Below, in pieces: positions 54,711-59,125 of a stretch of DNA of 64,000 nucleotides; position 1 is the first letter of the stretch; the number at the start of each line of letters is the position of its first letter. Origin of the DNA: an uncultured Clostridia bacterium (GTDB lineage Bacteria > Bacillota > Clostridia > Oscillospirales > Acutalibacteraceae); contig CALWIW010000002.1 of assembly GCA_944380855.1 (NCBI GenBank), forward strand, positions 39,662-103,661, in the 5' to 3' direction. The position numbers and the translations under genes were made by a program. The notes below the pieces were generated by a model. That model was not told the origin of the DNA, did no database searches, and saw nothing but the letters and a program-made list of their open reading frames with translations.

Positions 54711-56063
54711 TTATTTATCTTTATATTCTTCACGAACAACCTTTGAAACCTTTTCGTCGTCGGTTTCTTTGTCCTTTGGAAGAATAAGATTAAATACGGT
54801 TGCTATAACGAAAGTCATGATAATTCCGTTCTGTGCGAAAATCTGGCTGACCCATTCAGGCATAAGAGCCAGTGACTGAGGAACCATACCGATACCGACA
54901 CCCAAGCCCAAAGCAAGGGAAATGATGATTTCGTTTCTGCCTGTGAGCTTCTCTCTCTGGAGCGAACGCATACCGCTTACCAAAATCATAGCGAACATGA
55001 TTACAGCCGCACCGCCCAAAACTGACTGAGGCATTACGGAGAGAACAGCGGAAAGCTTTGGAATAAATCCGCAGAGAATGAGGAAAACTGCACCGGTCAT
55101 AATGCAGAATCTGTTTACAACCTTTGTAACGGCTACAAGACCAACGTTTTGACTGAATGATGTGTTCGGAAGAACACCGAAAACGGCTGCAACAAGGCTT
55201 CCGAAGCCGTCTGCGATTACGCCGCCGGAAAGCTCCTTGTCTGTTGCTTCTCTGTCAAGTCCGCCGTTGGCGATACCTGAAATGTCGCCTACAGTTTCAA
55301 CGGCAGTTGCCACAAACATGATGAGCATTGCAACGATTGCCTGCCAGTTAAAGTCCATGGCTATCGGCATAAAGTGGGGAAGGCTTATCCAGCTTGCCTC
55401 GGCTACCTGAGTGAAATCAACCATACCAAGGAAGATTGCAAGTATGTAGCCTACGATAATTCCGATAAGGATAGAGGAAACGCTCAAAAATCCCTTTGTA
55501 AACTGTTTGAAGAAAACTATTGTGAGAACTACAACAGTGCCTACCAAAAGGTGTTTCCAGTTTCCGTAATCAGCACTGCCTGAACCGCCGGCAAAATAAT
55601 TTATGCCTACAGGAAGCAGTGAAAGACCGATTGACATAATAACAAGGCTTGTTACAACCGGAGGGAAAAGCTTTTTCAAAGGCTTTATAAAGAAACCTAA
55701 GAAAATTTCAAAAATTGCACCTATGAGAGAAGCTCCCAAAATTGCACCGTAGCCGTAGTTTACGCCGATTGCTTTACAGGTTCCGATAAATCCGGAGCTT
55801 GTACCCATTACTACCGGCAAGCCGCTTCCCATTTTCCAAATTGGGTAAAGCTGAATAAGTGTTGTTATACCTGCAATGAACATTGCGTTTTGAATAAGCA
55901 TTGTTTTCATGCCCGCGTCCATCTCTATAAGACCGCAGACAATGAGCAGAGGGGAAACATTGCCCAGAAACATTGCAAGAACGTGCTGAATTCCCAAAGG
56001 AATTGCCCTTGACAGAGGTACTCTTCCGTCAAGCCTGTAAATGTTGCTTACTTGATTTGACAT
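54711..56063 (-). CDS. NCS2 family uracil-xanthine/purine permease
   Basis: A 450-residue membrane transporter with 12-14 helices. Signature regions are LSRAIPLGIQHVLAMFLGNVSPLL at the N-terminus, MGTSSGFIGTCKA, LPNTSFSQNVGLVAVTKVVNRFC and a central Glu in AVETVGDISGIANGG. The NCS2 family covers uracil, xanthine, guanine and uric acid importers. The guanine-class riboswitch in its leader favours a purine substrate. ATG 56063 with GAGGAG 7 bases upstream is chosen over an ATG five codons earlier. It may supply substrate for the molybdenum hydroxylase. Confidence 0.95.
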   Translation of the reverse strand: MSNQVSNIYRLDGRVPLSRAIPLGIQHVLAMFLGNVSPLLIVCGLIEMDAGMKTMLIQNAMFIAGITTLIQLYPIWKMGSGLPVVMGTSSGFIGTCKAIGVNYGYGAILGASLIGAIFEIFLGFFIKPLKKLFPPVVTSLVIMSIGLSLLPVGINYFAGGSGSADYGNWKHLLVGTVVVLTIVFFKQFTKGFLSVSSILIGIIVGYILAIFLGMVDFTQVAEASWISLPHFMPIAMDFNWQAIVAMLIMFVATAVETVGDISGIANGGLDREATDKELSGGVIADGFGSLVAAVFGVLPNTSFSQNVGLVAVTKVVNRFCIMTGAVFLILCGFIPKLSAVLSVMPQSVLGGAAVIMFAMILVSGMRSLQREKLTGRNEIIISLALGLGVGIGMVPQSLALMPEWVSQIFAQNGIIMTFVIATVFNLILPKDKETDDEKVSKVVREEYKDK

Positions 56064-56112
56064 AAAAAAACTCCTCATACTATTTTGCGTATTTCAGCAT
56101 AATAATATGAGG
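56064..56112 (-). promoter_or_regulatory. Shine-Dalgarno-sequestering hairpin of the permease leader
   Basis: CCTCATA (56112-56106) pairs perfectly with TATGAGG (56079-56073), which is part of the TATGAGGAG ribosome-binding site. The 26-base loop contains a 17-base segment complementary to the 5' half of the upstream riboswitch aptamer. It is therefore the likely expression platform. Confidence 0.75.
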
Positions 56113-56115
56113 CAG

Positions 56116-56225
56116 GCAGGGAAACAGACGCCATTTTTAAAATGACGTCTGCAAATATTCCTGCGTAGTCCTTTATTACGGATAAAGGGTAGAAACTTAC
56201 AGCCCGTTATGCTGAAATATACGCA
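56116..56225 (-). ncRNA. purine riboswitch (guanine class) and following hairpin
   Basis: The minus-strand aptamer covers 56225-56162. P1 is TGCGTA with TACGCA; P2 is CAGC-ATAACGG-GCTG; J2/3 is the canonical AAGTTTCTACC; P3 is CCTTTA-TCCGTAA-TAAAGG; J3/1 is ACTA with C at the specificity position (guanine class; U would indicate adenine). The L2 GG and L3 CCG loop-loop contacts are present. J1/2 reads TATTT rather than the usual TAAT, a variation. A CAGACG-type hairpin (56151-56124) follows with only three T, too weak to be a sure terminator. Confidence 0.92.
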
Positions 56226-56234
56226 TTTTTCTAC

Positions 56235-56263
56235 ATTGTAACACAATTAATTTGAGTTTTAAA
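56235..56263 (-). promoter_or_regulatory. promoter of the riboswitch-permease transcript
   Basis: On the minus strand TTTAAA (56263-56258), a 17-base spacer, TACAAT (56240-56235), placing the start just before the aptamer. Confidence 0.65.
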
Positions 56264-58837: not shown

Positions 58838-59125
58838 TAAAAAAACAGCTGCATCCTAAAAATAGGACGAGCAGCTGTAACACCCGTGGTACCACCTATA
58901 TTACCGGAAAACCGGTCACTCTAAGCTTCATAAAAAGCCTCCTGTTTAACGCACATTCAACGGCATCACCTACTTACGGACGCAAAATCCGCTTTCAGCT
59001 TGCGGCTCCGAAGTGTTATTCACAAAAGCTCTGCTATGCGGTTTACACTGTCCCGCACTCACTGCAAGCGAAATCTTATGTTACTTCTCTTCATCATTGC
59101 CTTTATTTTATATTATTTAAAGTTC
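58838..59125 (-). promoter_or_regulatory. T-box leader (Asn specifier AAC) with terminator
   Basis: The minus-strand leader contains the stem I start GATGAAGAGAAGTA, a specifier region GAAT-AAC-ACTTC with AAC at 59017-59015, and the conserved T-box TGGTACCACGGGTGTT at 58894-58879, complementary to the tRNA acceptor end. A terminator follows: ACAGCTGC with GCAGCTGT around a second paired part (58878-58845), then TTTTTTT. The Asn codon matches the downstream asnS and asnA genes. Uncharged tRNA-Asn should favour the antiterminator. Confidence 0.95.

Follow-up and report, generated by a model that had tools for sequence, protein, structure and literature searches.

The window, by which we mean the whole 64,000-nt stretch of DNA that was analysed, carries on its (-) strand a gene for an NCS2-family xanthine permease, pbuX (54711..56063 (-); TIGR03173, 426.6 bits against a cut-off of 414.15). 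On the same strand, with 82 bases between it and the pbuX start, is a match to the purine riboswitch family RF00167 (56146..56244 (-)). Its score of 53.8 bits (E 2.3e-06) lies above the curated gathering cut-off of 37 bits, and the match therefore belongs to the family. As given in the excerpted text of PMC11477304, the purine classes differ at nucleotide 74, which is C in guanine riboswitches and U in adenine riboswitches. The ligand-reading base here, whose position we assigned by eye, is C (GACUACG in the RF00167 alignment), which fits the guanine class. A guanine-type purine aptamer had been predicted from the DNA letters, and both the family score and this base bear that out; the ligand would thus be guanine.

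An extended -10-like element, TGTTACAAT (56235..56243 (-)), directly precedes P1 (element read 56243-56235). It is a consensus match only, TACAAT preceded by TG, and transcription beginning from it would start a few bases upstream of P1. Three promoter-like sites were found on both strands, compared with a shuffle mean of 1.8. The leader folds at -56.5 kcal/mol against a shuffle mean of -34.1, and none of 200 shuffles was as low. Just upstream of the pbuX unit are asnS and asnA, headed by a T-box leader (58860-59106 (-), RF00230, 120.3 bits) behind which asnS lies. The aptamer's 5' half can also be read, by eye, as a nine-codon frame at 56226-56197 (-), ATG CGT ATA TTT CAG CAT AAC GGG CTG TAA, which lacks a Shine-Dalgarno (SD) sequence and is probably a coincidence of the P1 sequence.

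The original prediction held that the 5' half of the aptamer could pair with a segment lying inside a hairpin that hides the SD. The two arms are exactly as predicted, with TGCGTATATTTCAGCATAA at 56225-56207 (-) and TTATGCTGAAATACGCA at 56102-56086 (-), and the 17-bp complementarity between them is confirmed, with a 2-nt bulge and an energy of -21.0 to -21.3 kcal/mol. When compared with 2000 dinucleotide shuffles of the leader, this duplex had a z-score of -5.1 (p 0.001), only one shuffle being as good. The first arm, as placed by the duplex search (56207..56225 (-)), comprises the P1 5' strand, J1/2, the P2 5' strand and the start of L2, and is the strand predicted to be captured. The second (56086..56102 (-)) is the candidate anti-aptamer, or capture segment, and forms the upper half of the SD hairpin.

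That hairpin (56073..56112 (-), -17.1 kcal/mol) pairs CCTCATATTATT at 56112-56101 with AATAGTATGAGG at 56084-56073. It exists as predicted, but its stem is not the 7 bp that had been proposed: it has 12+3 bp (upper stem TGC/GCA) and an 8-nt loop. The capture segment is accordingly not a 26-nt open loop but makes up the upper half of the hairpin. Its placement inside the SD hairpin is supported, and leaders of two other genera have complementarity at the aligned position (below).

The SD sequence, GAGGAG (56071..56076 (-)), is followed by a run of seven T's (T7, 56064..56070 (-)) that lies between the SD and the ATG, two bases past the hairpin, and is a possible terminator tail. Among the 45 genes of the window, as crudely called, pbuX alone has a run of at least five T's in the 12 bases before its start. 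The T-run near the riboswitch had been judged poor. This holds for the upstream hairpin (13 bp in the fold, 56124..56152 (-)), which is followed by TTTCCC, but it overlooked the T7 at 56070-56064 behind the SD hairpin. Our scan for hairpins with tails recognised the SD hairpin, the 2-nt gap and the T7 as terminator-like; a second scan, which required a stem with a loop of 3-8 bases, called no terminator at the pbuX leader. The 2-nt gap between stem and T7 would weaken termination, and this counts against a terminating hairpin.

The arrangement resembles the "dual" expression platforms of Barrick & Breaker 2007, in which, according to the part of that paper drawn on here, the 3' side of a terminator hairpin carries the ribosome-binding site and the start lies within 10 nt (PMC2258182). 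In the window the GAGG of the SD lies in the 3' arm of the stem, and 9 nt separate the stem end at 56073 from the ATG at 56063. One hairpin probably both terminates transcription and sequesters the SD. A purely translational sequestor would lack a tail, and T7 is present both in the window and in its closest relative. Of the 178 purine leaders for which a start was called, 128 had a terminator-like hairpin, and in eight of these, including the window and its relatives G001 and G751, the tail lay no more than 14 bases from the start; gene starts, aptamer ends and terminators in these counts are crude scripted calls, and some near-duplicate leaders remain. L014 and L144 likewise have a hairpin and then T's within 14 bases of the start codon, and may be dual platforms.

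We asked how capture of the aptamer 5' half might expose the SD. The ensemble energy of the full-length window RNA was -60.7 kcal/mol, compared with -59.1 when P1 was forced and -56.3 when capture was forced, which is 4.4 kcal/mol above the ensemble. The mean unpaired probability of the SD was 0.22 in the free fold, 0.21 with P1 forced and 0.62 with capture forced. The simple equilibrium between ligand-free and ligand-bound states that had been envisaged thus fails, because the predicted full-length folds bury the SD whether or not P1 forms; capture would instead have to act during transcription. Consistent with this, in folds of the growing RNA, which are equilibrium folds of fragments and serve as a proxy for kinetics, capture stood at about 0.90 until the 3' arm of the SD hairpin appeared and then fell to 0.01. 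Because capture dominates before that arm and lies 4.4 kcal/mol above the full-length ensemble afterwards, the capture state would be a transcription intermediate, and the folding models make a cotranscriptional OFF switch likelier than an equilibrium switch.

We therefore think it rather probable that a guanine-class riboswitch turns pbuX off in a dual and cotranscriptional manner, with the aptamer 5' strand as the switching strand. Without ligand, the aptamer 5' half, from the P1 5' strand through P2, would pair with 56102-56086 while the 3' arm of the SD hairpin is still to be transcribed. This capture duplex would act as antisequestor and antiterminator, leaving the SD open and allowing RNA polymerase to read through T7 (ON). 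Guanine binding would lock P1 and P2 and leave the anti-aptamer free, so that the 12+3-bp hairpin could close; the closed hairpin would hide the SD and, with T7, probably stop transcription (dual OFF). In the probable order of events, either the ligand binds the aptamer ahead of the transcription of 56086 or the anti-aptamer is captured by the 5' strand, after which the SD hairpin closes or stays open. We infer the same OFF logic as the original prediction.

A scan of genomes with four aligned PbuX proteins gave 37 loci. Searches with RF00167, which used stricter filters for the large genome samples, found matches in 48 of 398 genomes of the family sample, 53 of 394 of the order sample and 70 of 396 from the family of G751, as well as in 2 of 5 from the genus of G371 and 4 of 7 from the genus of G751. 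A family draw centred on G371 returned genomes already in this search, and in G758, from the genus of G751, a purine riboswitch is present for which tblastn gives no link to pbuX. We compared seven distinct pbuX leaders: those of the window and G001 (g1), those of G371 and G271 (g102), and those of G751, G757 and G754 (one genus). G001 is the closest relative and belongs to the genus of the window. The PbuX proteins of the set are 80-97% identical to that of the window (G001 97%, g102 82-83%, G751, G757 and G754 80-81%).

For the 40-base 5' part of the aptamer, the best duplex in each of the seven leaders lies immediately ahead of the SD, ending 12-23 bases from the start codon. This 5' part reached p<0.05 in six of the seven (G754, 0.079), or in five in a separate run (G001 0.056, G754 0.086), and the P3 control did so in none. 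The same 5' part, applied to eight other pbuX leaders as controls, gave p<0.05 in two (L083, L087); 5'-part complementarity is not confined to the seven leaders. For four representatives (window, G371, G751, G757), the summed duplex energy was matched by none of 1000 shuffle sets, the positional spread by 16 and the number of columns paired in all four by 92, where the sets treat lineages as independent and the relatives are kin. The table of best duplexes contains five columns with changes on both sides among the seven leaders. The covariation that had been suggested as a check was run on the four representatives, where four columns are compensatory; as 887 of 1000 shuffle sets reach that number, which is no excess over chance, we dropped covariation as evidence. 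What is kept among the relatives is the complementarity and its place, with covariation not above chance.

Alternatively, the complementarity could be chance, or inherited similarity without function, above a constitutive hairpin. We consider this very improbable. Such a reading would account for compensatory changes without excess, for full-length folds that hide the SD with or without P1, and for G001, in which two anti-aptamer changes weaken the helix from -21.0 to -14.9 kcal/mol, a point that also counts against the capture switch. It is at odds with the p of 0.001 in the window, with a summed energy equalled by no shuffle set, and with the matching duplex position in three genera whose surrounding leader has diverged.

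The seven leaders differ in how well they fit a capture switch. Taken alone, the 5' half reaches significance in the two g1 leaders only (window p 0.001, G001 p 0.021), the other five ranging from 0.064 to 0.55 (g102, 0.53-0.55). Adding the P2 3' strand, an extension chosen after inspection of the folds, gives p values of 0.006-0.086. In a mononucleotide first pass with the coding sequence included, where z-scores were noisy, those of g102 were near +0.8 to +0.9, and G751 had its best site inside the gene. The arm that otherwise hides the SD is itself a partner of the P2 3' strand in g102 and G751, where mutual exclusion would therefore be direct. Folds of shortened RNAs put capture at about 0.8-0.97 in all seven leaders before the SD is complete. 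As the RNA grows further, capture falls from 0.91 to 0.38-0.01 in G001, from 0.90 to 0 in g102 and from 0.95 to 0.31 in G751, and stays at about 0.74-0.97 in G757 and G754. SD exposure is clearly greater with capture forced than with P1 forced in five of the seven (window, G371, G271, G751, G757), slightly so in G001 and hardly in G754. Two of these leaders argue against a capture switch: G754, which has no predicted SD hairpin and whose SD is exposed in both states, and G757, whose stable state is capture even at full length.

The leaders also vary in where a terminator might lie. T7 is kept in G001, G751 has a T5 behind its SD hairpin, and G757 has a T6 at that place, but with no adjacent hairpin called. 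In g102 no T-run follows the SD hairpin (CAAGGAGCTTATG), which fits translational control there. These leaders bear on the purely translational switch of the original prediction, under which T7 would be an unimportant spacer and the hairpin would do no more than hide the SD. The g102 leaders speak for it; the two-base gap and an AT-rich stem would make a weak terminator, and the scan requiring a 3-8 base loop called none. Against it, even in g102 a weak terminator-like hairpin was called 51-52 nt ahead of the start, and T7, the only T-run of its kind among the 45 called window genes, is kept in G001, with a T5 in G751. Firmicutes riboswitches are, moreover, mostly transcriptional in the part of PMC2258182 drawn on here. 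With T7 in the window, a purely translational mechanism is one option only, and we regard it as unlikely. In g102, the SD hairpin without a T-run would act on translation, perhaps together with the weak upstream terminator.

Terminator-like hairpins upstream of the SD hairpin were called in G371, G271, G751, G757 and G754, and none was called in the window or G001; in G751, G757 and G754 the aligned upstream hairpin is followed by TTTTGTTTTG. The relatives may thus combine two control points. These hairpins would also suit ordinary attenuation in which the P1 3' strand controls the upstream hairpin (56152-56124) and the 5'-strand complement is minor. In the minimum-energy fold of the window, GCAGG at the P1 3' edge (56160..56164 (-)) is the predicted partner of CCTGC (56120-56116) at the base of this strong hairpin, and would open P1 from the other side; the pbuX relatives L081 and L083 also have, by eye, terminator-like hairpins. 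The tail in the window and G001 is TTTCCC, however, with no terminator called there, and the complement of the P1 3' strand reached p<0.05 in none of the seven leaders, so that no canonical xpt-type A-T antiterminator was found among them. We consider such attenuation quite improbable. The GCAGG/CCTGC pairing itself, which appears in folds, is not significant in the window (p 0.39), and we rejected the P1 3' strand as the switch.

To place this strand choice in context, we surveyed 171 of 202 purine leaders, having skipped four duplicates and the leaders without an aptamer core or start call. The 202 comprise most RF00167 matches, a few from the family, order and G751-family samples having been left out, and near-duplicates (e.g. 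L081/L207, L083/L222) partly remain in the 171. Queries were 22 bases on the 5' side and 18 on the 3' side, and a complement was significant if at most one of 120 shuffles was as good. The 5' strand had a significant complement in 22 leaders, the 3' strand in 19 and both in none, where about three each would be expected by chance. Only the window, among the seven pbuX leaders, is in the 22, which counts against the preferred dual switch. In 12 of these 22 leaders, one of them the window, the 5'-strand complement and the 5' arm of a terminator-like hairpin overlap; L029, L043, L045, L047, L067 and others show this overlap and are possible 5'-strand antiterminators. From these sequence counts, capture by the 5' strand seems, taken alone, to be a recurrent feature of these bacteria. 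Given 22 leaders against 19, switching by the 5' strand may be a common arrangement that has been missed. The distinctive points at pbuX are the depth of the capture into P2 and its link to the SD hairpin.

Known purine riboswitches offer both parallels and contrasts, here as far as the excerpted texts of the cited papers go. In the four-strand P-A-T-H scheme of B. subtilis xpt-pbuX, the antiterminator forms between A (the aptamer 3' side) and T while P (the 5' side) is free, and full-length RNA adopts only the terminator form, the antiterminator being a transcription intermediate (PMC5459577). The pbuX leader of the window shares with it the aptamer class, the gene type, the proposed OFF logic and an antiterminator that would exist only as a transcription intermediate, but the strand with the significant complement is P, through J1/2 into P2. 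The yxjA purine riboswitch of B. subtilis is also an OFF switch with strand exchange among P1, a central helix and an off-hairpin; its central helix involves the P1 3' strand and is in competition with a transcriptional terminator (PMC9756952), in contrast to the 5' strand complement seen here. Both OFF purine riboswitches compared, xpt and yxjA, thus switch with the P1 3' strand. The add adenine riboswitch of Vibrio vulnificus is an ON switch whose purine aptamer likewise governs access to the ribosome-binding site, but there the ligand opens the sequestor (PMC10907184), whereas here it would let the sequestor form. Translational and dual platforms in general have been described (PMC2258182, PMC10907184); the excerpted text of PMC2258182 mentions for dual platforms no hairpin containing, as in the window, an anti-aptamer complementary to the aptamer 5' strand. 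There are also covariation models of whole riboswitches, a purine platform among them (PMC13273304). Among the open-access literature matches listed, none described a guanine-class riboswitch whose SD hairpin contains an anti-aptamer. The parts are of known kinds, and what is unusual is the strand that switches and a single hairpin that is probably both stop signal and ribosome block.

More broadly, a subfamily of pbuX guanine riboswitches in Anaeromassilibacillus and related Clostridia might place a near-reverse-complement of P1(5')-P2-J2/3 in a sequestor-terminator hairpin, with the aptamer 5' half doing the switching and individual genera tuning the layout: the tail would follow the SD hairpin alone in the window and G001, both hairpins in G751, and just a weak upstream hairpin in g102. 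We put this forward tentatively, at a little short of even chances. If true, this would mean that the switching strand can differ under an unchanged aptamer, and a natural 5'-strand switch that reaches into P2 and uses a single hairpin for both transcription and translation would be a compact test case for cotranscriptional capture.

The source genome (G000) has two purine riboswitches. The second (L002, 1501-1597, contig 16) precedes a 462-aa protein whose start, MNYDVIIIGAGPAGIFTA, appears by eye to be FAD-binding oxidoreductase-like, and a similar protein start follows a riboswitch in two relatives (L004 in G001, L030 in G007).
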